Shown here: positions 4,521 to 51,789 of the stretch, one piece after another
Numbering within the stretch: the stretch's first letter is position 1
How the letters are laid out: each line of letters opens with the position of its first letter
Origin: Tenericutes bacterium HGW-Tenericutes-2
GTDB taxonomy: Bacteria; Bacillota_I; Bacilli_A; Acholeplasmatales; Acholeplasmataceae
Length of the DNA stretch: 64,000 nucleotides
Direction of reading: 5' to 3'
Assembly (NCBI GenBank): GCA_002839095.1
Contig: PGXL01000001.1
Span: forward strand, 124,001-188,000
Notes under the pieces: model-generated
Databases searched by the model: none
Seen by the model: only the letters and a program-made list of their open reading frames with translations
What the model was told of the DNA's origin: nothing
Translations under genes and position numbers: made by a program

Positions 4521-4558
4521 ATTCATAAGGACTAAAGAAATCGCTAAAGGAGATTGTA

Positions 4559-5500: not shown

Positions 5501-5510
5501 TACAAAACAT

Positions 5511-5536: not shown

Positions 5537-5583
5537 TTTATTTTCTAAATGATTTTTTGACTCGTTTAATATGAATCGAATCC

Positions 5584-7011: not shown

Positions 7012-7042
7012 ACATCAATAGATTTTTTTCATCTATTAATGT
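7012..7042 (-). terminator. Intrinsic terminator of the lipid kinase gene
   Basis: ACATCAATAGAT (7012-7023) pairs with ATCTATTAATGT (7031-7042) with one mismatch; on the minus strand a run of seven T follows. Confidence 0.75.
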
Positions 7043-7061
7043 CTTATTATATCAATTTAAA

Positions 7062-33691: not shown

Positions 33692-36600
33692 TTACTCTAG
33701 GAGATACGCATAAATGCCAATGCTATTGTAAAATTCTCCCATCTCACCAATCATGTAGGTATTTGTCATTAAATTGATATGTATTGCATCAACACCGATT
33801 AAATTAATTTCAATATCAAATACTGCAGGATCGGATGTTGCTGTCACACTTAGGATTTCTATATAATTTCCTATAGAATCAAATACAACTAAATCATATA
33901 AATCATTGATATCAATAATATAATCAAATCCAATACTAAATCCAGAGGTTGTCTCATTGGTAACATATCCTAAATTGAGTAGCTTCACTGTATCATCCAC
34001 ATAAATCTTCATCATACCACCAACATTGACTTCATCTCCTGTAACCTTGATCATCATCAAGTATCCAACATCACCTATTGTTGTTGTATAGGATGGATTG
34101 GTTGCTCCAGGAATGATAAATTCTTCATAGGTGAATGGATTGACGCGGTACCACTGCAGGCTATAGCCTGTTGTGATTAAATCTCCATCTAAGTTATATA
34201 TACTTATATCTTCAAGATTTAAGCCATGCCCTACAAATGGATACATTACTCCTGTTAAATACATTCCCATTTCTAGATAGTAGCCTGTGAAATATGTTTC
34301 AATCATTGTTGCTGCAAATGAAACTTCGTTTGAAACTATTCCTGTATCTGCCAATAATCTAAATGTCATACCTTCACTAAGTGTTAAGCTAAAATTATTC
34401 CAAGGAGTGGTTAGTGGTGAACCTTCAATCAAGAAGTCCATCCATGCTTCACCAATCGTATCATAATATTGAAGTGTGTAATAGCTAACCCCTATATCAT
34501 GTGCATATGGAAACTCAAGATCCACGATCATATCTGAGCCACCAAACCAGCCATGATGACGATCAACTTCGACGATTCTTAATCCGGCAAATGTTCCTGG
34601 AGTCACAAAATCATCTATATAATACATCATTCCTAAGGATCCAGGATTGTATGAAGACATTGGGTCAGTATAAGGCATAACATATAATTCATAGGAATCA
34701 ATTAAATCACTACTGTTATAGGATGCAGTAATATGTATAGTTACATAGGTATCTTCTATAAATGGCTGGAATGTAATCTCATTTAAAGACATACTAGCAA
34801 GACTTAAATCCATAACATCGATTTCAAATGTATAGCTACCACCATAAAGTGGATGTGTAACTGAGAACTGGTAGCTCATATCATCCTTATAGATTCTATT
34901 CATTTCATTTTTCATATAGTTCATCATAATCTCTAGAATTTGACCATCAGTAAGAACTATTTCTGTAACAATATCTACTCCTGCTATCACATAACCTGTC
35001 CAACCAGGGCCATACATTGTGTAATAGAATTCATAATTAAAGAACTTAATCTCAACATCCATATCAATATAATCTTCTAGTTCTAAATAAACTGCTTCTG
35101 TTTGCGTAAAGAGCATGATTGTATTTAGTCCATCAGTTAAATAATAATTCATGTCTTTTGAATTATAGATGAGGCGTCCTTGAACAACATGATAGCGAAG
35201 TAGATTTAATGACTCAAATTCACTTGTTGCAAGCTCTTGTAAAGGTGTAATTGTTTCAATAGGTGCATCAACTGCTACACTACCTAAATACTCATAATAA
35301 GCAGAATCGTTATATCCATTGATATTAACCAAACCGTCATGTTCCTTTGTTCCAAATAGAATCACAACATCACCAACATTCAATTCATCGAAGCCAAATC
35401 CATATAGATAGAGTGAATTTCCAGGTTCTTCTAGAATGATGCCAAAATATTCAATTTTTTCTCTAACTATGACTTGAATCTTTCCAAACTCACCCACTTG
35501 TAATCCGTAAAAATCTTCAATCGTAATCAATGGATATGGATATAGATTGAATGCGAACACATGAACTACTGTTAAATCACCACAGGTGATTGTCACTTCA
35601 AATTCAAGAATTTCATGATCAATCACATCTTGCAAAGTCATCGTCAATAAATCGATAGCATAACCATTAGCTCCAACAAATTCCCAAGTCATTGTTATGC
35701 CTAGAAGTGGAATTGAATCTGGAAGATATAGTGTTTCTCCTGGTCTAAATATTTCATTTTCCAACATATAGGTTCCGTATGCTATTGCAGCATCAATCTT
35801 TTCTTGGTCAGTTTCATATATAAGTTCAATGGAATCTTGAGTGGCTACAAACAATAAGCGATCTGGTGCATAAGGGTCTTCATTATCAAATGTTGGGAAT
35901 AGGAATCCTTTGATTGTAACTTGGAAGCCCATATATGGATAGATTTCTTCAAATGGGTCCAATATCATTTGGATAGAGGAGCCTCCTGATTCAAACATAT
36001 ACATTGGAGCGAATACGATGAAATCTCCTCCATCAATCATTTCAGTTAAGAGTGGGAAGAATGAATCTTCTAACATAGACACATATCCAGTTACTTCAAC
36101 ATATATACCCCAGTTGGATTGATCTGTCATGTCAATTAAGTTGAATTCATCTATCGTCATTGTTTGTAGTGTCATTGGGTTTGGAATGTCTTTAGATAGA
36201 ACCTCTAGTAATAAAGTCGTTTCTTCATCCCATATTAATGTGATTCCTTCATGACTTCTCTTATACCCTTGAATAATGACTTCATCGCCAATTTCAACAT
36301 TTAGTTGTTTGACAACAAACATATGACCTGTTTCATCTGCGATAATGATAGGTCCATCAAACATTTGGGTAACAACAACAATACCTCTAATTACGTATAG
36401 CTCATCGAAATCTCCAGCATAAAATTCTGCAACTGTTTGCGTTTCAATTGGTTCAACAATTAAATCAAACTCGAAAATATGGACTTCAATTCCAGCTGTG
36501 ATTGTAGCTCTAACTTCAATCCACACTTGTTCTGTTATTGTATCAGAAATAAAGCCTGTTGCTAAATTGTATAGGGATGCGTTAGGACCTATGATTTCAT

Positions 36601-39600
36601 AGGAAATAGTAACTGGATAAGGATCATAGGTTTCAGGCAATATGTGGGTAGCTCCTGGTCTTAAAATTTTACTGCCATAATAATCTGTAAGTAGTCCTGC
36701 TACATGTAAAACTAACTCTTCATCAGTGAATCGAATCGATAGATCTCCTGGATAATCGACAAAGACAAGGATAATATTTCCTCCTCCATCGGTAATTATT
36801 AGGGAGAAGCCAGAAATTTTAACTTCTTGTCCTTCATATAAATCGAGTGAGTTCATTGCCTCTATTGAAACTGAAAATATTGGGATATGATTTATACCAT
36901 CAGTGATAAAGAATATTTCTGACATTGGATCATATGATAATAAGCCTTCAAGTTGATAATACTTTAAATAGTATTGTGGATCTGTTATATCAAAATTAGC
37001 GAAGTCAGCAAGGCTTACAGGAGTTGGAGTGAGTGGATGATCTTGATTGCTTGCAAGTATTCCTTGAACAGTTTGATTTGGATCATTAGCTAATATAATC
37101 ATTCCATCTGGTGTTTCCATCTTTGCTCCATAAAGGATAACTAAGTCACCAATTTGAACATCTGGATTTGCAGATATACTGAGTAATGCCCCTGTTTCAT
37201 CTGCAACCAATAGCATGTTGTCTTCGGTAATTAAAAGTACAACACCTTTGACAAAATGCATGTCTTCATCTGTTAACATCATAAAATCTGCAATACTTAA
37301 GTAAGTCAAAGGAGTGACATGCAATTCAATATCAGAAATTGCAGAAGCATCACCAATAGTGATTGTAGCAAATATCGAAATCCATAGTTCTTCATCAATC
37401 ATTGAATCAATTGTAAATGTATTTATATCAAATAAATGTGCATCATCTAATGCTACTGTATAAGAAACTGTTAATTGAATCCAAGGATGCTCAAATGGTA
37501 AATCAACAATTTGCCCTGGGAAGAATGTTAGACTTTCTAAATAACCTTGAAGCATAAGTGCTAGCATGTCAGCAAGCTCTTGATTTGTATAGTCTAGAAT
37601 TAAGTCTTCTGGTTGACCAGTATAGATAAACATTAGGAAAGGTTCATCATCAAAGTTTGGTAAACTAAATCCTCTAATGATAACATTCATGCCGTTGAGT
37701 TGCATAAACATTTCATACATCTCATGAGAGAATATGAGTATTGGCATCGAGGACTCACCATCAAATAATTCTATTGAATGACTCATTTCATCAACAACTA
37801 ATTCACCTGAGACTTCTAGGTATTTCGCCCAATAAAGCGAATTAAACACATCAAGTGCATTGAATTGATCAACGGTTAACTGTACTGGTGTGATTGGATT
37901 AGGTAATCCTTCATCAAGTACATCTAGTACTGTCTCTTCGCTGCCAGACATCAAGACTATACCCTCCATAGTTACATGATATCCATGAACGACAATTAAA
38001 TCTCCATATTTAGCAAACATATCAGATTGAACAACAAGTATACTTCCACTTTCATCTGCAATGATTAATAAATTTGCTTCTTCAAATGAGAAGATTACTA
38101 TACCTGAGACCATCGCATAGTCCATATCATTGAGTGCCATAAATTCTTCAATGGTAAGTATTTCAGTTGGTAATAATATAATAGTTACTTCAACAACTTC
38201 AGTTATATCACCTAGGGTTACTGTTATCTGAAGTGTAATATTCTTTTGTACATCAGTTTCTAAAAACAGACCTGTTGAAGGATTGAAATATGAAGCATTT
38301 TCTCCGGTTGTGATGAACTCAATTGTAGCACCATAAATCGGATCATATGTTGGTAATTGAAGCATAAATGAACTATAGAATTCCTTTTGATCAAGCTGTG
38401 CGATACCAAACGCTATCAGTTCATCTACCTTTTGTTGATCTGTTAATACGATGTCTTCAATAGGTGATGATGGGTCATAGATAATGTGCCATATAGAATT
38501 CATTGGTTCATAGCCTAATACAATAGCATGCATCGTAATCTTTTGACCAATTCTTGGCATAAAGACATCATTCATTGGATCAACAGATTTAAAGTTAATA
38601 GCTACTGTGTTTTCTGAACCAGCTTCAACAAGGAAGTATTTACCCATGTTAAATTGAACAATACCTGAGGTTATAATTGGTTTGCTAAATATGTAAGGAT
38701 TATTATATGAGTCAGACATTAGTTCTGTCAAAGTCATTGGAGTAGATTCAGGTAAGGTAGTAAAGCTTGTATTTTCCTGTAGATTTGTAATATTTACAAT
38801 TTGAGGAACATATTGATAATAGTTGAAATCACCTTCAAGTTCGATACCATCTCCAATATCTAAACCTGTGCTGGATGCCATTACAAATATATATCCTGTT
38901 CCATCATATAAATAGAAGCCTGGATCCATTGGATTTGGGTATTTATAATATATAACACCTTTCACTTTGACATGAGGAATACTATATTGTAATATGTCTG
39001 ATATTCGATCATATCCATCATCGACTATCCATTTTGCGTAAAGTGTGAGATTACCTAAAGGCATGATTTCTACTGTGAATAAGACGCTTAAATCAATATC
39101 TTGATACCAGCCATCAAAGATATAGCCTTCCTTAGTAGGAACTCCGTGTGCTGGAATCGTTGCTTGATATGGAACTGAAACTGCAGTAACTAGGGAACCA
39201 CCGTTGGATTCATAGGTGATTGTGAAGTTAACAGGACTCCATTTCGCATAGACTGTTATATTTTGTTCTGGCATCACAGTCAATGTAAATAAACTAATAA
39301 GTAAGTTGTCAGCATACCAGCCATCAAATGTATATCCTGGTTTTACAGGATTAGCCATTAAAACAATAGGATCATATGCTCTAATCATTGTTGGAGGAAT
39401 AACATTTGATCCATCCACATAACTGATACTATATTCCTTATATGCCCATTTTGCATAAAGTGTGATGTTTTCTGCTGGCATGGTTGTAAATGTATAAATG
39501 TTTGTTAATTCAATATTTGTATACCATGAAACGAAGTCAAAGCCTTCTTTGGTTGGATTAGCAGGCTGAGTTACTGTAGTTAAATAGTTTTGTGTAATAT

Positions 39601-40996
39601 CTGCTACAGCACTTCCTCCGTTTTCCTCAAAGCTAATGGTATAAGCATTAAGAGTCCATTTTGCATAAAGTGTGAAATCATTCGCTGGCATGGTTGAAAA
39701 TACATATGGCGTAAGTAATGCTATATCACTATACCATCCATCAAATGAATGCCCAGTCTTTGTTGGTGCAGCTGGTGCAGTAATTGAAGAAAGATAGAGA
39801 GCTACTGTATTTGAGACTGCACTTCCTCCATTTGAGTTATATGTAATTGTATAGTTGTTAACCGTCCATTTCGCATATAGAGTCATGTTATTTGCTGGCA
39901 TGGTTGTAAATGTATAAGCCATAGTTAATGCGATGTCGCTGTACCATCCATTGAATGTTGAACCTACTTTTGTTGGAGCCGTAGGTGCTGCAACTGTACT
40001 ATTATATGCTTGAGTAATATCTAATACAGCAGATCCACCATTTTCTTCAAAGCTAATTGTATAGGTATTAACAGTCCATTTCGCATATAGAGTCATGTTA
40101 TTTGCTGGCATGGTTGTAAATGTATAAGCCGTAGTTAATGCAACGTCACTATACCATCCATCAAATGTTGAACCTACTTTTGTTGGAGCCGTAGGTGCTG
40201 CAACTGCACTATTATAGGCTTGAGTAATATCTAAAACAGCGGATCCTCCGTTTTCTTCAAAGCTAATTGTATAGGTATTAACGGTCCATTTCGCATAAAG
40301 TGTAATATTATCTGCTGGCATAGTTGAAAAAGTATATGCGATAGTTAATGCAGCGTCGCTAAACCATCCATTGAATGTTGAGCCTACTTTTATTGGGGCA
40401 GTTGGTGCAGTCACTACTGAGCCCACTTCCTGTGTGATAGCTGCAACTACGCTTCCTCCATTTGATTCAAATGAAATTGTCTTCGTTATAACTGCGACAG
40501 GCTCCCATTTTGCATATAATGTCGTGTTACTTGCTGGCATGCTTGAGAATGTATATGCATTTGATAAAGCAGAATCAGAAAACCAACCAGCAAAAGTAAA
40601 TCCAGATTTGGTTGGATTTGCTGGTGAAGTCACTGCTGAACCTGCTTCCTGTGTGATTGCTGCAACCGCACTACCACCGTTGGACTCAAAGGTGATTGTG
40701 TATTGCACGACACTAGAAGTCCATTTGGCATAAAGTGTCAGGCTTGTATTTGTCAGTAATGAGGCAATGGTAAAAGGTTGAGTTAAAGCATCATCTAAAT
40801 ACCATCCATCAAAGGTAAAACCTTCTTTGGTTGGTTCTGGTAGATTGATGCTCGTGCTAGAGGTGCTTACCGTCATATCTTCAACTTCTGTACCTCCATT
40901 TTCTTCAAAAGAAATAGCTACTTCTCCTGAACCCGTACATGAGTAGATAAAAAATACTAGAAACAACACAGTAATCAACATCAAAAATTTTCGCAT
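33692..40996 (-). CDS. Giant surface lipoprotein: nine InlB repeats, then five OB-fold/Ig-like module pairs
   Basis: 2434 residues from the ATG at 40994-40996 (AGGAGGAGA four bases before). Lipobox IYSCTG (Cys about 18). Residues 24-655 are nine tandem InlB/Listeria-Bacteroides repeats of about 67-70 residues, each ending (L/V)YAKW. Residues 660-2130 alternate five OB-like beta-barrel modules (for example YAMVSGIVIFSF) with five helix-plus-Ig modules that open with T(D/N)xE or TDQ-type helices (LTDQQKVDELI, YTNQELADML, FTDEELVLHV, ETDQEKIDA, LTDGQILEI). The OB modules resemble those next to extracellular nucleases, but no nuclease domain is present. The C-terminal 300 residues are beta-rich and unassigned. 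Probably an elongated adhesin or ligand-binding stalk. It has its own promoter and structured leader. Confidence 0.85.
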   Translation of the reverse strand: MRKFLMLITVLFLVFFIYSCTGSGEVAISFEENGGTEVEDMTVSTSSTSINLPEPTKEGFTFDGWYLDDALTQPFTIASLLTNTSLTLYAKWTSSVVQYTITFESNGGSAVAAITQEAGSAVTSPANPTKSGFTFAGWFSDSALSNAYTFSSMPASNTTLYAKWEPVAVITKTISFESNGGSVVAAITQEVGSVVTAPTAPIKVGSTFNGWFSDAALTIAYTFSTMPADNITLYAKWTVNTYTISFEENGGSAVLDITQAYNSAVAAPTAPTKVGSTFDGWYSDVALTTAYTFTTMPANNMTLYAKWTVNTYTISFEENGGSAVLDITQAYNSTVAAPTAPTKVGSTFNGWYSDIALTMAYTFTTMPANNMTLYAKWTVNNYTITYNSNGGSAVSNTVALYLSSITAPAAPTKTGHSFDGWYSDIALLTPYVFSTMPANDFTLYAKWTLNAYTISFEENGGSAVADITQNYLTTVTQPANPTKEGFDFVSWYTNIELTNIYTFTTMPAENITLYAKWAYKEYSISYVDGSNVIPPTMIRAYDPIVLMANPVKPGYTFDGWYADNLLISLFTLTVMPEQNITVYAKWSPVNFTITYESNGGSLVTAVSVPYQATIPAHGVPTKEGYIFDGWYQDIDLSVLFTVEIMPLGNLTLYAKWIVDDGYDRISDILQYSIPHVKVKGVIYYKYPNPMDPGFYLYDGTGYIFVMASSTGLDIGDGIELEGDFNYYQYVPQIVNITNLQENTSFTTLPESTPMTLTELMSDSYNNPYIFSKPIITSGIVQFNMGKYFLVEAGSENTVAINFKSVDPMNDVFMPRIGQKITMHAIVLGYEPMNSIWHIIYDPSSPIEDIVLTDQQKVDELIAFGIAQLDQKEFYSSFMLQLPTYDPIYGATIEFITTGENASYFNPSTGLFLETDVQKNITLQITVTLGDITEVVEVTIILLPTEILTIEEFMALNDMDYAMVSGIVIFSFEEANLLIIADESGSILVVQSDMFAKYGDLIVVHGYHVTMEGIVLMSGSEETVLDVLDEGLPNPITPVQLTVDQFNALDVFNSLYWAKYLEVSGELVVDEMSHSIELFDGESSMPILIFSHEMYEMFMQLNGMNVIIRGFSLPNFDDEPFLMFIYTGQPEDLILDYTNQELADMLALMLQGYLESLTFFPGQIVDLPFEHPWIQLTVSYTVALDDAHLFDINTFTIDSMIDEELWISIFATITIGDASAISDIELHVTPLTYLSIADFMMLTDEDMHFVKGVVLLITEDNMLLVADETGALLSISANPDVQIGDLVILYGAKMETPDGMIILANDPNQTVQGILASNQDHPLTPTPVSLADFANFDITDPQYYLKYYQLEGLLSYDPMSEIFFITDGINHIPIFSVSIEAMNSLDLYEGQEVKISGFSLIITDGGGNIILVFVDYPGDLSIRFTDEELVLHVAGLLTDYYGSKILRPGATHILPETYDPYPVTISYEIIGPNASLYNLATGFISDTITEQVWIEVRATITAGIEVHIFEFDLIVEPIETQTVAEFYAGDFDELYVIRGIVVVTQMFDGPIIIADETGHMFVVKQLNVEIGDEVIIQGYKRSHEGITLIWDEETTLLLEVLSKDIPNPMTLQTMTIDEFNLIDMTDQSNWGIYVEVTGYVSMLEDSFFPLLTEMIDGGDFIVFAPMYMFESGGSSIQMILDPFEEIYPYMGFQVTIKGFLFPTFDNEDPYAPDRLLFVATQDSIELIYETDQEKIDAAIAYGTYMLENEIFRPGETLYLPDSIPLLGITMTWEFVGANGYAIDLLTMTLQDVIDHEILEFEVTITCGDLTVVHVFAFNLYPYPLITIEDFYGLQVGEFGKIQVIVREKIEYFGIILEEPGNSLYLYGFGFDELNVGDVVILFGTKEHDGLVNINGYNDSAYYEYLGSVAVDAPIETITPLQELATSEFESLNLLRYHVVQGRLIYNSKDMNYYLTDGLNTIMLFTQTEAVYLELEDYIDMDVEIKFFNYEFYYTMYGPGWTGYVIAGVDIVTEIVLTDGQILEIMMNYMKNEMNRIYKDDMSYQFSVTHPLYGGSYTFEIDVMDLSLASMSLNEITFQPFIEDTYVTIHITASYNSSDLIDSYELYVMPYTDPMSSYNPGSLGMMYYIDDFVTPGTFAGLRIVEVDRHHGWFGGSDMIVDLEFPYAHDIGVSYYTLQYYDTIGEAWMDFLIEGSPLTTPWNNFSLTLSEGMTFRLLADTGIVSNEVSFAATMIETYFTGYYLEMGMYLTGVMYPFVGHGLNLEDISIYNLDGDLITTGYSLQWYRVNPFTYEEFIIPGATNPSYTTTIGDVGYLMMIKVTGDEVNVGGMMKIYVDDTVKLLNLGYVTNETTSGFSIGFDYIIDINDLYDLVVFDSIGNYIEILSVTATSDPAVFDIEINLIGVDAIHINLMTNTYMIGEMGEFYNSIGIYAYLLE
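39030..40920 (-). repeat. Nine tandem coding repeats (InlB type), about 210 bp each
   Basis: The repeats are in register at about 210 bp; TCGCATA recurs at 39871, 40081 and 40291, exactly 210 bases apart. The central copies (about 39870-40290) are nearly identical at DNA level, while outer copies have diverged, which points to recent duplication in the middle of the array. Confidence 0.85.
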
Positions 40997-41000
40997 AATT

Positions 41001-41018
41001 TCTCCTCCTATTAGGAGA
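41001..41018 (-). promoter_or_regulatory. Hairpin that sequesters the ribosome site of the giant lipoprotein gene
   Basis: On the mRNA strand TCTCCT pairs with AGGAGA across a six-base loop (41001-41018). The paired AGGAGA is the Shine-Dalgarno sequence of the gene starting at 40996, so folding would hide it from ribosomes. Confidence 0.5.
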
Positions 41019-41019
41019 T

Positions 41020-41084
41020 GCACCATTAAACGAAAAAACGCAACCAGAGACAAAAATCTAGTTGCGTTTTTATTCAAATGGTGC
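41020..41084 (-). terminator. Two-tier leader hairpin with terminator-like inner stem (attenuator candidate)
   Basis: Outer stem GCACCATT (41020-41027) with AATGGTGC (41077-41084); inner stem AAAACGCAAC (41035-41044) with GTTGCGTTTT (41061-41070), extended by AGA/TCT. On the minus strand the inner stem is followed by TTTTTT. It may end photolyase transcripts, but it also lies inside the leader of the giant lipoprotein mRNA if the promoter at 41099-41127 is used. Confidence 0.65.
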
Positions 41085-41098
41085 CGCTCTTTAACTTT

Positions 41099-41127
41099 AT
41101 CATACTGCTAAATCTATGATTTAACAA
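41099..41127 (-). promoter_or_regulatory. Probable promoter of the giant lipoprotein gene
   Basis: Minus-strand TTGTTA (41122-41127), 17-base spacer, TATGAT (41099-41104). It overlaps the last codons of the photolyase gene and would make a leader of about 95 bases. Confidence 0.55.
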
Positions 41128-42523
41128 TAGGCGGATTATTATTTATAATATTTTCAATGTCTTTCACATATCCTTCAATATTAAACTTACGTTCTAATCC
41201 CTTATCATTCATATATCTTAACTTACCAAAAACGTTTCTTTCAGTCCAAGCACGATCGTGTTTACCGAAACACCATGCAATACCTGTATAGCTGTTTGGA
41301 TCTCTACCATCAATAAAGTATTTATTATTTAAAGATAAAATGGTTTGATAGGCTTCTTTATACGTAGGACTCCATTCAATTATCTTTTTTGCCCAATACA
41401 TGCGCATATAATTGTGCATGTATCCAGTAAATACCATTTCCTTCATGGCTGCATTAAAATAAGGATCATGTGTTTGATAGCTTTCAAGTTCATTTTTACT
41501 ATATAAATAATCTCTTTTGTCGAATTCATGTTCATTCATTGTCATATAAGCCCATGGCTCTGTCATCGTTTCAAACTGATCATATCCCTTGTTATAGGTA
41601 ACATAATTGAAGGCTAATTCTCTTCTGACTAAGAGCTGTTCGATATATGCATCAAATGACTCACCATCTAAATGCCCGTGATCAATTGCTAGAAACATTC
41701 TATCCATAATTTCTAGTGCAGAGATTTGACCAAAATGAAGATACATAGACATTTTCGAGGTTAAGCCTAGAGATGGATCGTTACTCAAGATATATTGATT
41801 GGCCTTATTTTCGAGAAAATCAGAAAATAGCTTAGACGCGTTAGTATATCCACCATGATAGATAGGGCTAATCTTGACAGATTGATCAATATCTAGTTGA
41901 TCTGTCAATTTTTTGATATCACTTAAGTCATCGTCACTATCGATATTTAAGTGCCCTTTATTTTTAAGCGTTGGTGTTCTACTAAAATCTCTAAACTCAA
42001 GATACATTCTTTTTATTTTTGGTCTAAGCGTATATGCTCCATATTCTGCCTTATCAGAGGCAATGCGAACTGGGACAATTAAATCTGTATCGATTATATC
42101 AATAGACAAGCTATAATCCTTTTCAATTGCATAATCTAGTACTTCTTTTCGCCACATCTTTTGATGTCTTAAATATCCATAATCCATTACAAGTGCATAT
42201 GCATCACCTAAATATTTCTTAATCCCTTTTTCAGGAGATTCAAGCTTAAACAGAAAATTGATACCAAAGTGCTGAAGAATTCCTTTAACTTCCTTGAGTC
42301 CCTCAAGCATAAAGTAATAATGTCTAAGATTCGCTTCTGGGTAGCTTGGAGTTAATCCAAAATAGACTAGCATAGGCAAATCCTTTTGATTTGCTAATTC
42401 AATCGCATAATTTAAGGCATGATTATAATGAACGCGTTGAGATTGCTGCATCCAATAAATCACATATTTTTGATTTAAATCACTTTTTCCGTCTTTTAGA
42501 TGAATAATTCGTTTAGGATTCAT
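41114..42523 (-). CDS. phr: Class II CPD photolyase
   Basis: 469 residues; uses blue/near-UV light and FAD to split cyclobutane pyrimidine dimers in DNA. Class II features are the start YVIYWMQQSQRVHYNHAL, MLVYFGLTPSYPEANLRHYYF, RRELAFNYVTYN, MHNYMRMYWAKKIIEW and YTGIAWCFGKHDRAW near the C-terminus; microbial class I enzymes look quite different. It is the third gene of a minus-strand operon behind the VTE5-like and VTE6-like genes (gaps of eight bases) and opposite a heliorhodopsin gene. The operon therefore ties DNA photorepair to prenyl-lipid metabolism and a rhodopsin. Confidence 0.95.
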   Translation of the reverse strand: MNPKRIIHLKDGKSDLNQKYVIYWMQQSQRVHYNHALNYAIELANQKDLPMLVYFGLTPSYPEANLRHYYFMLEGLKEVKGILQHFGINFLFKLESPEKGIKKYLGDAYALVMDYGYLRHQKMWRKEVLDYAIEKDYSLSIDIIDTDLIVPVRIASDKAEYGAYTLRPKIKRMYLEFRDFSRTPTLKNKGHLNIDSDDDLSDIKKLTDQLDIDQSVKISPIYHGGYTNASKLFSDFLENKANQYILSNDPSLGLTSKMSMYLHFGQISALEIMDRMFLAIDHGHLDGESFDAYIEQLLVRRELAFNYVTYNKGYDQFETMTEPWAYMTMNEHEFDKRDYLYSKNELESYQTHDPYFNAAMKEMVFTGYMHNYMRMYWAKKIIEWSPTYKEAYQTILSLNNKYFIDGRDPNSYTGIAWCFGKHDRAWTERNVFGKLRYMNDKGLERKFNIEGYVKDIENIINNNPPIVKS

Positions 42524-42531
42524 AGTTACCT

Positions 42532-43320
42532 CTATATGAAGAATAATAATGCAATGAGTGATGCAGCTAGACTGCTTAAGAAATTAACTGTGTCATTATT
42601 AACAAATGATATTCCTGATTTTAGGATAACCTCTTCATTTGGTAATGACTTATTCTCTGTAATGGTATCAGATTTGATTCCTAGATATTTTGCTTGAACT
42701 AAGGAGCCTAAATAGGAATCAACAAAGCACCCTAGAACTCCAGATATTGAAATAATTGCTGCATAAAACAAAACCGTTTGAAATAGCACAACAGTAGTTA
42801 TACTAGAAACAAGAGCAAACAAAACTCCAATAAACAATGCTCCGAGAACGGAAGCTAGCGTTCCTAGCCCTGATATCGCACCTGAGACACCTTTGGATAC
42901 TTCTTTAAAGTTAGTAACACTTCTAGTCTTTCCCTTGCTTAAAATGCCTATTTCTGAGGCCCATGTATCTGAATTCGATGTGGCGATTGCTGCTGCAGCT
43001 GCAATCAAAAGAAATTCCATATTCAGAAGATAAAATAAAATAGAGAAAGCTGCAGCGACTAAACCATTGGAGATTACTTGAAGATAGTTTCTTCCACTAC
43101 TGGAGTCATCCACTTTTCTTTCATGTAGTTTAGTAAGTAGACTTGAAGATATAAAGAATGCGATTAAAAGAGAGTATAAAACAATCCCACCAAAAGCGTA
43201 AATGATGGTACCTAGTATGACTGAGGCAATCAATCCGCTAAGTACAAGTGAATGCTTAGCATAAGCTATGACTGCAATAAAAGTTGACAATAAAGCTCCA
43301 ATTATAATTCCGATTAGCAT
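42532..43320 (-). CDS. DUF92 membrane protein, VTE6-like (phytyl-phosphate kinase family)
   Basis: 262 residues with about six or seven membrane segments. The family signature ATSNSDTWASEIGIL (about 97-111), followed by TNFKEVSKGVSGAISGLGTL, is that of DUF92/TIGR00297 proteins. The plant and cyanobacterial member VTE6 phosphorylates phytyl phosphate to the diphosphate. It lies eight bases after a VTE5-like gene, so the pair could convert a prenyl alcohol to its diphosphate in two steps. Which alcohol this organism would use is unknown; Acholeplasma-type bacteria make carotenoids and polyprenols. Annotation by family is firm, the reaction is inference. Confidence 0.8.
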   Translation of the reverse strand: MLIGIIIGALLSTFIAVIAYAKHSLVLSGLIASVILGTIIYAFGGIVLYSLLIAFFISSSLLTKLHERKVDDSSSGRNYLQVISNGLVAAAFSILFYLLNMEFLLIAAAAAIATSNSDTWASEIGILSKGKTRSVTNFKEVSKGVSGAISGLGTLASVLGALFIGVLFALVSSITTVVLFQTVLFYAAIISISGVLGCFVDSYLGSLVQAKYLGIKSDTITENKSLPNEEVILKSGISFVNNDTVNFLSSLAASLIALLFFI

Positions 43321-43328
43321 AAGGTCTC

Positions 43329-43988
43329 CTATATGAGTAGTAATAAATAAAGTGCGAGTGAAGTAATCAGTGGGACTGATAAATTATCAAGTCCTTTAGG
43401 TGTAAATAATTCAATAGTGCTAGCTACAAAAGCAACTCCTAGTGCAATCAAATAAGGATTAGGAACTCTAAATATAAGTAGTATAGTAATTGTTACAATC
43501 AAAGAAGCGATAAACATCGTAATGCTTCCTTCTAACGTTTTTCCAAAGATAAGTTTAAATTTACCGTATTTTGATCCAATAACTGCAGCTAGCCCATCAC
43601 CATAACCCATAACAAGTATACCAACAGCACCAATCATTGGTTGCTTAAGGACTCCAAATGTTAAAACAACAAGAATAAATAGAGAAATTGGAAAATAGAC
43701 AGTTCCTAAGTTACCCTTTCCACCACGCTCCATTGCTGATAACAAATTCAATCTATAGGATAGATAATTCAGAAGGATAAATGTAATTGGTGGAACGATT
43801 GCAAACCAAATTGCATTTTCACCTGTAAAAAATAACATTGCAAGAATCCACCAATTAGAAACCCCAATGTGAATAAATTTTCTAGCTCCTTCGTCATTGA
43901 TTATTTTCTTATTTTGCAAAACTGTAGAAATACCAATGACAGCAAATATAAGTAAATAGGATAATATTAGACCCCAGACATTAATCAT
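43329..43988 (-). CDS. VTE5/dolichol-kinase-like CTP-dependent membrane kinase
   Basis: 219 residues, about six membrane helices. RKFIHIGVSNWW (41-52) and GYGDGLAAVIGSKYGKFKLIFGKTLEG (about 134-160) match the phytol kinase/dolichol kinase/CDP-alcohol superfamily, which uses CTP to phosphorylate a lipid alcohol. In plants VTE5 makes phytyl phosphate, the substrate of VTE6; here the VTE6-like gene follows at eight bases. Diacylglycerol kinase of the yeast Dgk1 type is the main alternative. It is the first gene of the operon that ends with photolyase; AAGGAG precedes the ATG, and a promoter is seen 120 bases upstream. Confidence 0.75.
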   Translation of the reverse strand: MINVWGLILSYLLIFAVIGISTVLQNKKIINDEGARKFIHIGVSNWWILAMLFFTGENAIWFAIVPPITFILLNYLSYRLNLLSAMERGGKGNLGTVYFPISLFILVVLTFGVLKQPMIGAVGILVMGYGDGLAAVIGSKYGKFKLIFGKTLEGSITMFIASLIVTITILLIFRVPNPYLIALGVAFVASTIELFTPKGLDNLSVPLITSLALYLLLLI

Positions 43989-44015
43989 AAATTTAACTCC
44001 TTTAAGGATGTGTCA

Positions 44016-44072
44016 GCAAATGAAATGTAGAATCCAGCTGTTATAAAAAAATCATTCATGATACTCATTTGC
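44016..44072. repeat. Inverted repeat in the shared divergent control region
   Basis: GCAAATGA (44016-44023) and TCATTTGC (44065-44072) are exact inverted copies. They lie in the 270-base region between the divergent VTE5-like and heliorhodopsin genes, inside the predicted leader of the minus-strand operon. An RNA stem or a DNA operator is possible. Confidence 0.4.
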
Positions 44073-44107
44073 GGTTTATTTATTTCTTGATTATTCAAAT
44101 CAACTAA

Positions 44108-44136
44108 ATTATATCATTTCTAAGAATAAAGGTCGA
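44108..44136 (-). promoter_or_regulatory. Promoter of the VTE5-VTE6-photolyase operon
   Basis: Minus-strand TCGACC (44131-44136), 17-base spacer, TATAAT (44108-44113). The -10 is perfect, the -35 matches four of six. Confidence 0.6.
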
Positions 44137-44200
44137 TAGTAACACTTCTAGATGACAATCAATAGTAGTTCAAGTGAAACACGATTGATAGTCAAACTAA

Positions 44201-44229
44201 TTGTTAAATTTGTCCAAAAGTTGTATAAT
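44201..44229 (+). promoter_or_regulatory. Heliorhodopsin promoter
   Basis: TTGTTA (44201-44206), 17-base spacer, TATAAT (44224-44229), 29 bases before the ATG with its AGAAGGAG ribosome site. Confidence 0.7.
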
Positions 44230-44258
44230 TTTCTTAAAAGATATAAGAAGGAGATTCT

Positions 44259-45059
44259 ATGGAAAAAACAGTATTTGAAAAGTTACGTAAGTTTAATATG
44301 ATTATGGGGGCTTTCCATTTAGTACAGGGTTTGCTGATGATTGTTATTGCTATCACTGTGATTAGCACAATCAATCCAGCGTTTCAAATTGTCATTACTC
44401 AAAACTTCTTGAATTTTGACGAAGTGAATATGAGATTGTACTTAGATTCAAAGCCATTATTTGATTTACCATTTGGAATTATGGTTGGTGTATTTCTTCT
44501 ACTCTCTGCTGCTGCACACGCTTTAATATCATTTCCTAAGAAGATTAATGATATGTACAACAGAGACTTACTTAAGGGTGTAAATAAGCTTAGATGGTTT
44601 GAGTATGCCTTAAGTTCATCAGTAATGATCGTTTTGATTGCGACGTTATTTGGTATTTATGACATTGGTTCATTAATCCTTATCTTTATCGTCAATGCTG
44701 CTATGAATTTATTCGGTCTTGATATGGAACTACTGAATTCAAAGCGTGCTGAAGGTGAAAAAATCAATTGGGGTCCATTCGTTTGGGGATCGATTGCAGG
44801 TATTGCACCTTGGATAGCAATCCTATTATATATGTTTGGTGCAGGTGGAGATGTCAATCCTCCTTGGTTTGTTTGGGCAATCATCGCTACATATTTTGTT
44901 GCATTCAATACATTCCCAGTTAACATGGTTCTACAATATAAGAAGATTGGTAAATGGAAAGACTATTTATATGGAGAACGTACTTACATCGTATTAAGCT
45001 TAGTTGCTAAGTCGATTCTTGCTTGGTTAGTATTATTTGGAGCATTCCAACCAGCATAA
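44259..45059 (+). CDS. Heliorhodopsin
   Basis: 266 residues and seven membrane helices, with the N-terminus expected inside (inverted relative to type 1 rhodopsins). The retinal Schiff-base lysine is K251 in YIVLSLVAKSILAW; the counterion glutamate is E115 in RWFEYALSSSVM, the heliorhodopsin signature. H20 and H87 correspond to the two cavity histidines known from heliorhodopsin 48C12 (H23, H80). These proteins bind retinal and act as slow photosensors or enzyme partners and not as pumps. A photolyase gene lies in the divergent operon, an association reported to help DNA repair in another bacterium. No retinal-forming oxygenase is in the window. Own promoter and terminator. Confidence 0.95.
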   Translation: MEKTVFEKLRKFNMIMGAFHLVQGLLMIVIAITVISTINPAFQIVITQNFLNFDEVNMRLYLDSKPLFDLPFGIMVGVFLLLSAAAHALISFPKKINDMYNRDLLKGVNKLRWFEYALSSSVMIVLIATLFGIYDIGSLILIFIVNAAMNLFGLDMELLNSKRAEGEKINWGPFVWGSIAGIAPWIAILLYMFGAGGDVNPPWFVWAIIATYFVAFNTFPVNMVLQYKKIGKWKDYLYGERTYIVLSLVAKSILAWLVLFGAFQPA

Positions 45060-45075
45060 AGTATTTTAATTTAAT

Positions 45076-45098
45076 AAAGCTAGGTAACCCCTAGCTTT
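45076..45098 (+). terminator. Intrinsic terminator after heliorhodopsin
   Basis: AAAGCTAGG (45076-45084), loop TAACC, CCTAGCTTT (45090-45098), then T. It separates heliorhodopsin from the next plus-strand gene, which may rely on readthrough. Confidence 0.85.
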
Positions 45099-45119
45099 TT
45101 TCATAGAAATGGAGGCTAT

Positions 45120-46082
45120 ATGTACTTTAAGAAACTTATCCATCCTGAATACTTTCAAGGAAATAGGAAAAAGAAAAATTATTTCGAGGGTTGGTATTAT
45201 AAGCTTGTTAGTCAAGATCAAAAATATACATTAGCCTTTATACCGGGTGTTAGTATTAATGAAAAGGATACTCACGCCTTTATACAGGTTTTTATATCTC
45301 AAACAATAGATCAGGAAACAAAACTAAAAAGCCATTATTTTCGATTTACATATGAAGAATTCGAATATGGACATCAAGAGTTCTATGTAAAAATTGGTGC
45401 TAACTACTTTTCAAAGGACAAGATTTCAATTGACTTAAGCTCAAAGCAGCTTAAAGTCTTTGGAAGTCTCTCATTATTGAATATAACTCCAATTCATAAA
45501 AGTATCTTTTCACCAAATATTATGGGATTATTTGGATATCTTAATTTCATGGAGTGCTACCATGGTGTAGTGAGCATGTCTCACCAATTAAGTGGGCTAC
45601 TCAAAATCAATGAAAATCCAATATCGTTTCACCAAGGGAAGGGATACATTGAAAAGGATTGGGGTAAATCATTTCCAAGAGCTTATGTATGGATGCAATC
45701 CAATCATTTTACAAACTCAAAAACCTCATTTATGTTTTCCTATGCAGACATTCCCTTTATTGGTCTATACTTTAAGGGCTTAATTGCTAATCTTTTCTAT
45801 GAAGGTAGGGAGTACCGCTTCGCAACCTACAATTTTTCAAGTGTTAAAAGGGAAGTCATTAAGGATAATCAAGTCCATTACATATTGAAAAGGGGTAGAT
45901 TAACGCTCGATATTGAAGCGAAGTCAACCACACAAATCGGATTAGCTTCACCCTTAAATGGAATGATGATTAATCAAATCAAGGAAGGCTTATCCGGCTA
46001 TATTCATTTAAAGCTATATAAGGGTAAAAAGCTTATCTTTGAAGATACAGGATATCATGCAGGAATTGAAGTAATGAAGTAG
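45120..46082 (+). CDS. Tocopherol-cyclase family protein (VTE1-like)
   Basis: 320 residues, soluble, mostly beta. The family signature NYFEGWYYKLV (about 20-30) and the central IEKDWGKSFPRAYVWMQSNHF match the tocopherol cyclase family, whose plant member VTE1 closes the chromanol ring of vitamin E. Bacterial homologues are common and mostly uncharacterised, so cyclase activity is not proven. It is the only gene downstream of heliorhodopsin (60 bases, with a terminator between, GGAGG before ATG). Two further VTE-pathway-like genes lie just across the divergent region. No homogentisate prenyltransferase or methyltransferase is present, so true tocopherol synthesis is doubtful; a lipid-lipocalin-like role is possible. 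Confidence 0.85.
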   Translation: MYFKKLIHPEYFQGNRKKKNYFEGWYYKLVSQDQKYTLAFIPGVSINEKDTHAFIQVFISQTIDQETKLKSHYFRFTYEEFEYGHQEFYVKIGANYFSKDKISIDLSSKQLKVFGSLSLLNITPIHKSIFSPNIMGLFGYLNFMECYHGVVSMSHQLSGLLKINENPISFHQGKGYIEKDWGKSFPRAYVWMQSNHFTNSKTSFMFSYADIPFIGLYFKGLIANLFYEGREYRFATYNFSSVKREVIKDNQVHYILKRGRLTLDIEAKSTTQIGLASPLNGMMINQIKEGLSGYIHLKLYKGKKLIFEDTGYHAGIEVMK

Positions 46083-46096
46083 TCTTCGGACTACTT
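46077..46096 (+). terminator. Terminator overlapping the stop of the VTE1-like gene
   Basis: AAGTAGTC (46077-46084), tetraloop TTCG, GACTACTT (46089-46096), then T. The stop codon is inside the stem. Confidence 0.9.
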
Positions 46097-46114
46097 TTTT
46101 CTTTTTTAGTTAAA

Positions 46115-46164: not shown

Positions 46165-46494
46165 TTACACTAAAAAATCTTTTCTAGCGGGAGTAAATAC
46201 ATCTAAAAGCTTACCTTCTTCTAAGCATAAAGCACCATGTACTTTATTAGATTCGATATAGAGTGTATCACCTTTTTTAACGATTTTAATCTCATCATCA
46301 ATATTGAACTCAAATACACCCTCTAATATGTAGGTCATTTGTTTATGTATATGTTGGTGTGCTTTAATCACTGCACCAGATTTAGCACTGAGTTCAACAA
46401 GCATCATATCATCTGTATGTGCTAACACTCTTCTTTCTAATAATGGATCAAGATGCTTAACTTCAGTTTCAAAATATAGAAAATATTGTTTCAT
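46165..46494 (-). CDS. Small cupin-domain protein
   Basis: 109 residues forming one cupin beta-barrel. The metal-binding motifs are KAHQHIHKQMTYILEGVFEF (first motif, H-x-H about 45-47 then E) and the later SNKVHGALCLEEG. Standalone cupins of this size are often sensors, isomerases or stabilising subunits. It is the last gene of the operon, nine bases after carbamate kinase, with GGGAG before the ATG. A link to arginine/ornithine breakdown is suggested only by position. Confidence 0.85.
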   Translation of the reverse strand: MKQYFLYFETEVKHLDPLLERRVLAHTDDMMLVELSAKSGAVIKAHQHIHKQMTYILEGVFEFNIDDEIKIVKKGDTLYIESNKVHGALCLEEGKLLDVFTPARKDFLV

Positions 46495-46503
46495 ATGACT
46501 CCC

Positions 46504-47421
46504 TTATGGATGAATGATCGTTCCACTCTTTTGTTTAAATGCTTCAACTGCTTTTTCAAGTTGAGCAATGACTGCTGGTTTATTGGTTGCTCTTACGAAA
46601 TTCATGCATGCTTCAATTTTTGGAAGCATAGAACCCTTTTTAAAATGATCATGCATCAAATATTCATCTAGTTCTTTCAGTGTAACATTAGTGAGTGCTT
46701 TTTGGTCTGGTGTATTGTAGTTAATAAATACATTTTCAACTGCTGTTAAAATAAATAGCTCATCAGCACCAATAATTTCTGCCATTTTAGCACTTGCGTG
46801 GTCCTTATCGATTACAGCATCTACACCAACAAGTGAACCATCTTTATTAACAACTGGAATTCCTCCTCCACCTGCTGCAATTACGATATGCTTGTCTTTA
46901 AGTAATGATAAAATGCTTTCTTTTTCAATAATATCTACTGGCTTTGGAGAAGCGATTACTCTTCTATATCCTCTACCTGCATCCTCAAACATTGAATATC
47001 CATATTTTTCTTCTAGCTCTGTGGCATATTCCTTTGAATAGAATGCTCCAATTGGTTTTGAGGGATGTTGAAATGCTGGATCTTTTTCATCAACTAAGAC
47101 CTGAGTCACAATCGTTGATATTGGTCTTTTGATATGACGTTCAAGCATAATATTTTGGATTGCATTTTGGATATGAAATCCGATATAGCCTTGACTCATC
47201 GCTCCACATTCAGCAAATGGCATCATCGGTGTTGAACTTGATTCAGAGAATGCTAGATTAATCATGCCAACCTGTGGTCCATTCCCATGGACAATCACAA
47301 TGTCATGATTCATCTCAATTAAAGGATAAATTGCTAGAGCAACATATTTAAGCAGTTTTTTTTGTTCCTCTGCATTATTTCCTAGTGCATTTCCCCCTAA
47401 TGAAATAACGTATCTAGACAT
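46504..47421 (-). CDS. arcC: Carbamate kinase
   Basis: 305 residues from the ATG at 47419-47421, which overlaps the argF stop. It converts carbamoyl phosphate and ADP to ATP, ammonia and CO2, the energy step of the arginine deiminase route. Motifs include SLGGNALG at the start, [19 protein letters not shown], the long [11 protein letters not shown] and [16 protein letters not shown]. No clear ribosome site precedes the ATG; translation probably re-initiates from argF. A GTG three codons earlier is the alternative start. Confidence 0.93.
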
Positions 47422-48433
47422 ATAAATCACTTAATGATGCAAGCATCACTGCCTTGATGGTGTGCATTCTATTTTCAGCTTCTTCAAAAACAACACTTTG
47501 ATTAGATTCTAAAACTTCATCAGTTACCTCTAGTTCACCGTTTGCTACATTTGGATAGTTTGCTCCAAATTCATTAGCGATTTCACGACCAACTTCAGTA
47601 TCAAGACCATGAAATGCTGGCAAGCAATGCATAAAGATTGCCTTTGGATTTGCATTTTTCATTAGCTTCATATTGATTTGATAGCGGTGTAAATCAGCAA
47701 TTCTTTGAAGCCATACATCCTTAGGTTCTCCCATGGATACCCAAACATCTGTGTAAAGAACATCTACATTTTTAGTAGCTTCCATTGGGTCTTCAGTGAA
47801 TCTCAGGGTTGCTCCTGTATTTTTAGCTATATTCTCACAGGTTTTTATTAATTCTTGATTTGGCCATAATGCTCTTGGTGCAGCAGCAGTGAAATGCATA
47901 CCCATCTTTGCACAGCCAATCATTAATGAATTTCCCATATTGTTTCTAGCATCACCTAAATAAGTGAATTTGATACCCTTTAACGATCCAAACTGTTCTT
48001 GAATGGTTAAAAAATCAGCAAGTATTTGTGTTGGATGATATTGATCGGTTAATCCATTCCATACAGGTACCCCAGAAAATTCAGCAAGTGTTTCAACATC
48101 ACTTTGAAGGTATCCTCTAAATTCGATTCCATCATACATATGACCTAAAACTCTAGCTGTATCCTTAACGGATTCCTTTTTACCCATTTGGGATCCAGTA
48201 GGTCCAATATAGGTTACTCCCATGCCTAAATCAAAGGCACCAACTTCAAATGCACATCTTGTTCTTGTTGAATCCTTTTGAAATAGTAATACAACATTCT
48301 TGTCCGATAAATGCTTATGACTTATACCCTCTTTTTTTTCTTGTTTAAGTCTAGCTGCTAAATCGATTAGAAATTGTATTTCTTCTGGCGTAAAATCTAA
48401 TAACGTCAATAAATGTCTACCCTTTAAATTCAT
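47414..48433 (-). CDS. arcB: Ornithine carbamoyltransferase, catabolic
   Basis: 339 residues from the ATG at 48431-48433 (GGAGAG eight bases before); the longer frame begins inside arcA. Carbamoyl-phosphate site [14 protein letters not shown], the [14 protein letters not shown] segment, [15 protein letters not shown], and the ornithine-side [10 protein letters not shown] are all present. It works in the breakdown direction, splitting citrulline into ornithine and carbamoyl phosphate. Placement between arcA (four-base overlap) and arcC, in an operon that goes on to consume ornithine, supports the catabolic role. Confidence 0.93.
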
Positions 48434-49662
48434 AATTTTTTCTCTCCATATTCTATTTCTTCTCTTTCTAAAGGCATGCTCATACATCTAGGACCTCCAC
48501 GTCCTCTCGATAGCTCACTGGATTCAATCTCTAAAACCTTGATTCCTGCATCTCTTAATAGTTGATTTGTCACATGATTTCTATCATAGACAACAACAAC
48601 ACCTGGAGCAATAGCTAATGTATTCGCCCCATCATTCCATTGTTCTCTAACTGATGTTATAACATCCTTACCACCACAGCGTATTAAGGTAATTTTTCGA
48701 TGAAGATGTTTTTCTAATACTTCCTCTAGAGAAACAACTACTTTTTTAACGTCAAATCGTTCACTGTTTTTAGTGATTTCAAAAACTGTTAATTTATTTT
48801 CAATTCCTGGATGAATGGTGAATACACCATAATCCACTTGAGTAAAGACTGTATCCAGATGCATAAATGCTCTACTCTTTGGAATATTGAATGCTAATAC
48901 TGTATTGAATTCATTATCTTCCTTGAATAGCTGTTCAGCAAAGAATTCGATAGCTCTAGGATCTGTTCTAGAGGATATACCGATTGCTACAACATGCTTA
49001 TTTAAAACATGGACATCTCCACCTTCAAGTGGGTATCTATTGAGTCTGTTATAAAATCTTATTGGGCTTTTCCCATAAAATCTAGGATGATAGTTAAGGA
49101 TATACTCAGAGAATATGGTTTCTCTTTGTCTAGCCTGCATATACATTTTTCCAATAGCAACCCCATTGCCTACACTCGAAAAAGGATCTCTTTGAAATAA
49201 AATGTTTGGGATTGGATCTGTATAAAATGGATATTCATCCTCTAGCATATCCATAATTGAGTTTTTCTTTCCGAGTGTTATCTCATGAATTCGAATACCT
49301 TCAATCATCTTTAAGATCATTTGTTTAATGGATAGACTCGTTAAATATTGATAGAGTCCAGTTTTAATGGTGTGTGATTTGATTTTTGACTCTTCAATGA
49401 ACGCATTTACAAAATTACAGATAACTTCGGGATGTGCTTCAAGTGCTTCAGTGATCATATCAGTTAGATATAAAACCTCAACTCCTTGTTTTCTTAATGT
49501 ATCTGCAAATATATCATGTTCTTCCTGCGCTACCTTTAGATAAGGAATATCATCAAATAATAGCTTTTCTAAAACATCTGGCGTTAGGTTTTCTAATTCC
49601 TTACCTGGCCTGTGGACCAATACTGATTTTAATTTCCCAATTTCTGATGTGACATGAATCAT
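48430..49662 (-). CDS. arcA: Arginine deiminase
   Basis: 410 residues; hydrolyses arginine to citrulline and ammonia. Family motifs: [18 protein letters not shown] at the start, [19 protein letters not shown], the catalytic [10 protein letters not shown] and the C-terminal [10 protein letters not shown] with the nucleophilic cysteine. Its start overlaps alr by four bases and its stop overlaps arcB by four. Ribosome site AAGGAG before the ATG. No arginine/ornithine antiporter (ArcD) is visible in the operon, which makes sense if ornithine is used inside the cell instead of exported. Confidence 0.95.
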
Positions 49663-50747
49663 ATTTTTACTCCTTCCACCATGATTCTAGGAACTCTATA
49701 CGATATAGAAGTTACTATTTCATAGTTAATCGTTTTTAGTCTGTGTGCGATATCATCTATGGTAATCAATCCTCCAAAGAGAGTTGCAGTATCACCAATC
49801 TTAACGGTCTCGTCTACTCTGATGAAGCATGCATCCATGCAGATGATGCCAACGATTTTGTATTCTTTTTTGTTAATTTCTACATAACCTGTTTTGTTTT
49901 TTCTGATGAATCCATCAGCATATCCAATCGGTAATATAGCAATATATTCATGAACCTTTGCTTGATAGCTTGCTCCATAGCCAACACTTTCTCCTTTATT
50001 CAATTCCTTAATTTGAACAATCTTTGATTTTAAGGACATGACAGGAATGATATTTGGTTTAGGTGAATCTAAGCTTAATCCGTAAAGTGAGATACCAAGT
50101 CTTACATGTGTAGTGAAGTCATAATTTTTCTCATACTTAAATGTTGATGAGGAATTAGAGATATGAATCATTTGAGGTCTTATTTTTAATGAATTGATGA
50201 TCTCTATAAAACGACTTGCCTGCATGTTGTAGAATGCTTCATTCTCATTAGCTGTAGCGAAATGTGTGAATATACCTTTAAGATTTATATTCTTTTTTGC
50301 TTGAAGGCTATTTACTGCATCCATAATCATCTTTGGCTCTACCATGCCATATCTTGACATTCCTGTGTCTACTTTTAGATGACAGATAAGTTCTAAGTTT
50401 GATTGGATAACAGATTCATAAATATGCTTGTCATAGATGGTAAATTCTATTTGATTGATGGATGCTACTTCTAGATCACTTTCTAGAATTGGACCCATCA
50501 TCAAGATGGATACATCTCTATGTATTGATTTCAATTCTAGGGCTTCCTCTAATAAAGAAACAGCAAAGAATCGAACTCCCTTTTTATATAAAAATTTAAA
50601 TACTTCCTTTGCTCCATGTCCATATGCATTCGCTTTGATGACTGGAATAACTGTTTTATTTTTGATTTCATTTTGTGCGATTTGATAATTGTGCCATAGG
50701 TAATCTAAATTGATTTCAGCCCATGTAGGTCTATAAAGATTGGTCAT
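49659..50747 (-). CDS. alr: Alanine racemase
   Basis: 362 residues from the ATG at 50745-50747 (GGAG seven bases before). The PLP lysine is K38 in IPVIKANAYGHG; the catalytic tyrosine lies in SVGYGASYQAK, and HVRLGISLYGL and AILPIGYADGF are typical. It differs strongly from the neighbouring ornithine racemase. Thiolysis of 2-amino-4-oxopentanoate by OrtAB is reported to release D-alanine, so an alanine racemase in this operon probably turns that product into L-alanine. A cell-wall role is the usual alternative but does not explain this position. Confidence 0.9.
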   Translation of the reverse strand: MTNLYRPTWAEINLDYLWHNYQIAQNEIKNKTVIPVIKANAYGHGAKEVFKFLYKKGVRFFAVSLLEEALELKSIHRDVSILMMGPILESDLEVASINQIEFTIYDKHIYESVIQSNLELICHLKVDTGMSRYGMVEPKMIMDAVNSLQAKKNINLKGIFTHFATANENEAFYNMQASRFIEIINSLKIRPQMIHISNSSSTFKYEKNYDFTTHVRLGISLYGLSLDSPKPNIIPVMSLKSKIVQIKELNKGESVGYGASYQAKVHEYIAILPIGYADGFIRKNKTGYVEINKKEYKIVGIICMDACFIRVDETVKIGDTATLFGGLITIDDIAHRLKTINYEIVTSISYRVPRIMVEGVKI

Positions 50748-51789
50748 ATGTTTTCTCCACATAAGGTGATGTCATCACAGATAGTATTCCACCATAGTTT
50801 AATTTAAAGGTGATGGTATCTCCAATCTCTAATAAAATATCCTTAAGCTCAACAATCAAATGGTCACTGCTGCATCCTAAAATATGAACACCATGAGGTG
50901 GGATTAAGTTTGAACAGTCACAGTCCTGTTTGCCAATTGCTAAAATCGCTCTAGTTATAATACCTTGGTCAACAAATTGAACCCTTTTACCAAATGCATC
51001 CATGCCAAGTAATCCCTCTGGCATTGAAGGCTTCTTTTTGATCTCGATAATTTCAGCTTCTAATGTAAAGACATCATCATGTAGACCTTCTATTGTATTG
51101 CCATATGCAGTTTCTCTACCTAAGACAAGTGCTTCACCTACTCGCAGATTATTAATATACTTAGGAATGGTTTGATCTGATACCATCAGTATCGATGATG
51201 AATTTCCACCCGATACCATTTCTAGCTTTATGTTTAGGTTGTCTTCAATGTTTTTAATAATATTTTCAAGCTTTAGATAAGTTTCATTGGTCGGTATAAC
51301 AGCACCGTAGCATGTTAAATTTGTTCCTATACCAAGAAGCTTGATGTGTTCATAAGCAATAATTTTTTCTACAACTTTTAAATAATCATCCTGATAATAG
51401 ATACCTTCTCTTAAATCTCCAATATCAAACATCAAAATAATCGAATGTATCTTTTTTCTCTTTTTCGCTTCTAGGTTTAATGAATCGATGATTTCTAGCT
51501 CTGAGTTTAAGGAGATGTCTGAATATTTGATGACATCTGAAATCTCACTCATCATTGGGATTCTTAGTAAAACCTTAGGCTTATGGGTTTCTATTTTTTT
51601 TAAATTCTCGATTCTTGAGTCTGCTATATAATCAACATTTGCTTTATTTAAGACATCAATCAATTTTGAATCTGCAGAAAAGACCTTTGAAACAGCCATC
51701 ATCGATATCCCTTTCTGATGTAGCATGCTTAAAAGATAGTGAACATTATGTGCATACTTTTTTAAATGAATATGAACCTTAGGATACAT
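50731..51789 (-). CDS. orr: Ornithine racemase
   Basis: A 352-residue PLP enzyme of the alanine/ornithine racemase group. PLP lysine K35 in SMMAVSKVFSAD; later ISLNSELEIIDSLN and MVSGGNSSSILM. It interconverts L- and D-ornithine; ornithine 4,5-aminomutase acts on D-ornithine, so this enzyme feeds the pathway. It abuts the MutL-like gene (TAATG, one-base overlap), and alr overlaps its end. The two racemases in the operon are clearly not duplicates of each other. Confidence 0.88.
   Translation of the reverse strand: MYPKVHIHLKKYAHNVHYLLSMLHQKGISMMAVSKVFSADSKLIDVLNKANVDYIADSRIENLKKIETHKPKVLLRIPMMSEISDVIKYSDISLNSELEIIDSLNLEAKKRKKIHSIILMFDIGDLREGIYYQDDYLKVVEKIIAYEHIKLLGIGTNLTCYGAVIPTNETYLKLENIIKNIEDNLNIKLEMVSGGNSSSILMVSDQTIPKYINNLRVGEALVLGRETAYGNTIEGLHDDVFTLEAEIIEIKKKPSMPEGLLGMDAFGKRVQFVDQGIITRAILAIGKQDCDCSNLIPPHGVHILGCSSDHLIVELKDILLEIGDTITFKLNYGGILSVMTSPYVEKTYDQSL

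Follow-up and report, generated by a model that had tools for sequence, protein, structure and literature searches.

Five genes at 41114–46082 of the window (the whole 64,000-nucleotide stretch of DNA analysed) probably form a reduced Acholeplasmataceae photoprotection locus, in which two of them, V5 and DUF92, would be a prenol salvage pair that originally served carotenoid synthesis. The other three encode a class II CPD photolyase (PHR), a heliorhodopsin (HeR) and a protein of the PF14249 family (TC). The full form is PHR-DUF92-V5-crtB-crtI divergent from HeR-TC, and crtI and crtB have been lost here. The host (G000) is an uncultured member of the Acholeplasmataceae with a genome of 2.30 Mb, 99.9% complete, congeneric with Peloplasma aerotolerans; strain M4Ah of that species is one of its genus-mates (G005).

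Five genes in two divergent arms

An ORF check bore out the divergent two-arm layout described in the initial annotation, returning the same coordinates and strands for the five ORFs (Table 1). Genes of the minus-strand arm are separated by 8 bp each, HeR and TC by 60 bp, and the two arms by 270 bp. The promoter-like boxes of the arms point outward, and both −10 boxes are kept in four close relatives; over the whole region such matches were no commoner than in shuffled sequence (27 versus 27.5). The best inverted repeat within the divergent gap is an imperfect 20-nt pair at 44153–44194. Common light regulation of both arms is plausible.

Table 1. Features of the locus, in window coordinates
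Feature	Position	Strand	Description
PHR	41114..42523	-	class II CPD photolyase, 469 aa, last gene of minus-strand arm
DUF92	42532..43320	-	VTE6-like prenyl-phosphate kinase candidate, 262 aa
V5	43329..43988	-	VTE5-like prenol kinase candidate, 219 aa, first gene of minus-strand arm
Divergent intergenic region	43989..44258	.	in relatives, place of crtB and crtI (L060, L062, L065, L071)
Promoter-like site, V5-DUF92-PHR	44108..44136	-	TCGACC-17-TATAAT, TG before −10; consensus scan
Promoter-like site, HeR-TC	44201..44229	+	TTGTTA-17-TATAAT; consensus scan
HeR	44259..45059	+	heliorhodopsin, 266 aa
TC	45120..46082	+	PF14249 (tocopherol cyclase family) protein, 320 aa, predicted dual beta-barrel
Terminator-like hairpin after TC	46076..46097	+	consensus scan; 3 found versus 2.4 in shuffles

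On the PHR side lies a minus-strand ORF of 2461 aa with many InlB-like repeats (33692–41077), its end lying 36 bp from PHR; ORFs related to it occur beyond PHR in several congeners (G004, G008, G014, G011). On the other side, 46165–53138 of the minus strand holds genes for a cupin, carbamate kinase, ornithine carbamoyltransferase and an arginine deiminase-like protein, then racemase-like genes. The arginine deiminase group adjoins TC in many congeners.

The proposed gene identities held up for four genes by the family and structure matches given here, and context and predicted fold support that of V5 as a candidate. PHR matched the NCBIfam model phr2 (E 5e-138) at 461 bits, under that model's strict cut-off of 550, and aligned nearly full length with the Methanosarcina class II structure 2xry (E 6e-88, residues 1–454); by family, its role would be the repair of UV-damaged DNA. 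HeR scored 319 bits with PF18761 (E 2.2e-95; cut-off 26.7) and 299.5 bits with NF038020 (cut-off 100), and its Lys251 (retinal) and Glu115 (Schiff-base counterion) have identical counterparts in the aligned sequence of 6is6. It would bind retinal, probably as a light sensor. This retinal is presumably imported, because no beta-carotene dioxygenase (Blh) reached its cut-off among 120 genomes; endogenous synthesis by Blh was rejected, with just one sub-threshold match in that set. A second, distant HeR was noted in unrelated contexts in five genomes (G001, G004, G006, G014 and G056; L033–L036, L038), followed in three of them by a small gene that by eye is DJ-1/PfpI-like.

DUF92 reached 205 bits with PF01940 (E 1.2e-60; cut-off 27.5) and 114.6 bits with TIGR00297, under the latter's cut-off of 205.9. 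V5 matched no Pfam or NCBIfam model, and we know of no bacterial VTE5 model in either collection. Neither V5 nor its distant homologues drew a useful match in curated-family searches, and comparison of V5 with solved structures by sequence gave a chance-level match only. Some weak matches to V5 of 503 aa were set aside for the TauE domains present in them. The predicted structure of V5 (pLDDT 86.8) was nearest to those of CTP-dependent CdsA (Z 8.4 and 8.0) and archaeal CarS (Z 7.5), with an unrelated helical fold at 7.2. On gene context and predicted fold, V5 is a candidate VTE5-like prenol kinase.

TC matched PF14249 at 64.7 bits (E 1e-17; cut-off 26.6). Its predicted structure (pLDDT 95.4) resembles the folds of AttH, kievitone hydratase, fungal pericyclases and a 25-phosphosteroid lyase (Z 17–23); a sequence search against solved structures gave no match, and the Pfam search gave none to the CrtC family. 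For the carotenoid 1,2-hydratase CrtC of R. gelatinosus, residues His239, Trp241, Tyr266 and Asp268 have been described (PMC4717167). From its fold and context, TC would be a soluble protein of the hydratase/cyclase type, acting on or carrying a prenyl or polyene lipid.

Carotenoid clusters of relatives

We compared the neighbourhoods of HeR genes across 120 relatives. Five genomes (G002, G010, G012, G017 and G039) have the full form PHR-DUF92-V5-crtB-crtI divergent from HeR, in which the genes of ~300 and ~495 aa encode an SQS_PSY protein (crtB) and a CrtI-family desaturase. The HeR-TC arm is intact in the last four; in G002 (L045) a frameshift, maybe an assembly error, splits HeR into two ORFs, and TC is displaced, five genes off. 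Four genomes, G000 among them, have V5 and DUF92 and lack crtB and crtI (the others are G006, G007 and G014), and nine have PHR divergent from HeR-TC only (G003, G004, G005, G008, G013, G026, G033, G044 and G056). In another family, f5, four genomes (G079, G084, G094 and G102) carry crtI-crtB-V5-DUF92 and a divergent TC at a locus that lacks HeR. Since V5, DUF92 and TC are grouped with crtI and crtB both in the full loci of family f1 and in f5, they belong to the carotenoid cluster; HeR and PHR are associated with that cluster in f1. The initial annotation had proposed looking for enrichment of its gene families near HeR in related genomes, and within the family such enrichment was indeed present.

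V5 and DUF92 form a module. They are adjacent in many genomes and naturally fused in one, as a 457-aa protein (G454, L310:96–1469, minus strand). DUF92 and crtB co-occur in 20 of 121 genomes, within 0.81 kb of one another in 20/20 (Fisher p 2.6e-13, a value uncorrected for descent that overstates independence, because the genomes are related). Outside the order the pair is found with crtB at L301, L304 and L307, and with TC, no crt gene being nearby, at L303 and in Pleomorphochaeta (L205); in Fusibacter (L220) V5 adjoins TC. At L303 (G246; 4320–7161, plus strand) TC, V5 and DUF92 are co-directional and followed by a DUF1722 gene.

The linkage of HeR and TC is more than chance, because TC directly adjoins HeR in 22 of the 41 full-length HeR loci of relatives. 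In the rest of the class, TC was beside HeR in 1 of ~45 sampled HeR loci; further pairings were seen at L176, L189 and L190, L176 and L278 being probably one genome. Elsewhere TC homologues are widespread in anaerobes, mostly with no link to HeR or crt genes. That HeR genes of two distant clades fill the same crtI-HeR-TC slot speaks for a functional link between HeR and TC in family f1. Almost all PHR-HeR loci of this family retain TC.

By comparison with its relatives, the window genome is shown to have lost crtI and crtB in place. No SQS_PSY gene was found in the G000 genome, nor any crtI or crtB remnant in the window's own 270-bp gap. The sister genome G014, whose HeR is 98% identical to that of G000, carries in its V5-HeR gap a remnant of the crtB C-terminus (approximately residues 223–306, E 2e-7). 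V5 and DUF92 are open in all four genomes lacking crt genes. Between G000 and G014, the pair on which the dN/dS estimates mainly rest because many other pairs were saturated in dS, ratios were 0.08 for V5, 0.17 for DUF92 (the maximum in the locus), 0.07–0.08 for TC and PHR, and 0.03 for HeR. To judge from these ratios, V5 and DUF92 are still under purifying selection in the window genome.

Prenol salvage and rival readings

A prenyl diphosphate synthase of the FPP/GGPP family (PF00348) was present in 14/14 control genomes versus just 8 of the 121 Acholeplasmatales genomes, all 8 of them crtB-positive. Sixteen genomes have crtB and the V5-DUF92 pair and no PF00348 gene; the set includes three single-contig assemblies (G021, G032 and G086) and cultured Paracholeplasma vituli (G084). 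CrtB aspartate motifs are intact in the synthase-less genomes wherever sequence coverage extends to them. In the 52% of G032 that was examined, no homologues of mevalonate kinase or the decarboxylase were found. Six genomes have crtB and no DUF92, and four of these, all in group g9, do have a PF00348 synthase, which is an FPP synthase by NCBIfam and adjoins mevalonate kinase and diphosphomevalonate decarboxylase genes; the other two are G040 (g9, 84% complete) and G001 (85% complete, with crtB near a contig end). In crt-positive relatives that have the pair and no FPP/GGPP synthase, V5-DUF92 would be the evident source of CrtB substrate. V5 would phosphorylate a scavenged prenol (e.g. farnesol, geranylgeraniol or phytol) with CTP, DUF92 would add a second phosphate to the V5 product, and such relatives would build carotenoids from the salvaged prenols. 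Weighing against this reading, the V5 Z of 8.4 exceeds the 7.2 of an unrelated helical fold by little, and G000 itself has no crtB, UbiA or PF00348 gene.

More tentatively, and with confidence a little short of even, we propose that wall-less, non-photosynthetic bacteria lacking any prenyl diphosphate synthase make carotenoids from scavenged prenols by means of a VTE5/VTE6-like kinase pair encoded in the carotenoid operon, and that in one branch this module was combined with HeR, PHR and the PF14249 protein into a photoprotection locus. If true, this would explain how wall-less bacteria without prenyl diphosphate synthase might nevertheless produce carotenoids. The 16 genomes with crtB and V5-DUF92 and without the synthase, the cultured species among them, make bacterial prenol salvage directly testable.

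Other readings of the same genes were weighed. The initial annotation placed light sensing and photorepair under shared control with an antioxidant pathway, vitamin E-like or prenyl-lipid, of VTE5-, VTE6- and VTE1-like enzymes. TC and DUF92 do exceed the PF14249 and PF01940 cut-offs, and the combinations at L303, L205 and L220 would suit such a pathway; but G000 has no HPPD, no UbiA prenyltransferase and no PF00348 synthase, UbiA reached its cut-off in none of the relatives, and the relatives' copies of the genes accompany crtI and crtB. A vitamin E (chromanol) pathway was rejected after the UbiA, HPPD and PF00348 searches, and we consider the wider reading highly improbable. Alternatively, V5, DUF92 and perhaps TC could be functionless leftovers of the lost carotenoid pathway, leaving HeR and PHR as the only working unit. 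The four genomes without crtI and crtB are in keeping with such decay, as are G004, of the same HeR clade and without V5 and DUF92 as well, and the comparatively high dN/dS of DUF92. Against this, both genes stay open in 4/4 crt-less genomes, the V5 ratio is like those of TC and PHR, and almost no PHR-HeR locus of the family is without TC; we find decay of this kind unlikely.

The remaining possibility concerns TC, which might work directly for HeR, carrying or enzymatically modifying its retinal or an accessory carotenoid. Its frequent position beside HeR, the slot shared by two distant HeR clades, its predicted barrel fold and the lack of any Blh over cut-off would all fit, whereas many anaerobes have TC without HeR, and in family f5 TC stands beside crtI at a locus from which HeR is absent. 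We give this role a small but appreciable chance. Either way, TC is named here as a partner gene for study alongside heliorhodopsin. The reading we prefer remains that of a reduced photoprotection locus whose V5-DUF92 pair would salvage prenols.

Comparison with known systems

A literature search found no report joining heliorhodopsin with tocopherol or with Acholeplasma. Photolyase is a known neighbour of HeR and, in Trichococcus, also its binding partner (PMC9769723, PMC11109279). In the Trichococcus operon, as at the present locus, a Gram-positive lineage has HeR next to a gene for a class II CPD photolyase, but the two genes are co-directional there and divergent here, where V5, DUF92 and TC are added (PMC9769723). 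Zinc-finger HeRs are flanked by carotenoid genes and photolyases, as HeR is in the full loci of relatives; the study of that group reports no V5, DUF92 or PF14249 genes (PMC8612252), and in the window genome crtI and crtB are gone.

TC shares with the AttH, kievitone hydratase and pericyclase group its PF14249 match and a predicted dual beta-barrel, and differs in having only ~10% identity to the solved members. The closest parallel to V5-DUF92 is phytol salvage. In plants VTE5 and then VTE6 act in sequence on phytol, VTE6 being recognised via COG1836 (PMC9782597). As in plants and cyanobacteria, a predicted CTP-fold membrane protein is here paired with a DUF92 protein; by contrast, the present pair is linked to crtB, there is no tocopherol pathway, and V5 is assigned by context and fold. 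Few prenol kinases have been confirmed, and the Plasmodium enzyme PolK was called the first farnesol/geranylgeraniol kinase from a non-photosynthetic organism (PMC10849223). The salvage proposed for that parasite, of farnesol or geranylgeraniol in a non-photosynthetic organism, is like the one suggested here, which differs in being bacterial, in having a dedicated candidate for the second kinase and in occurring in genomes without a PF00348 synthase.
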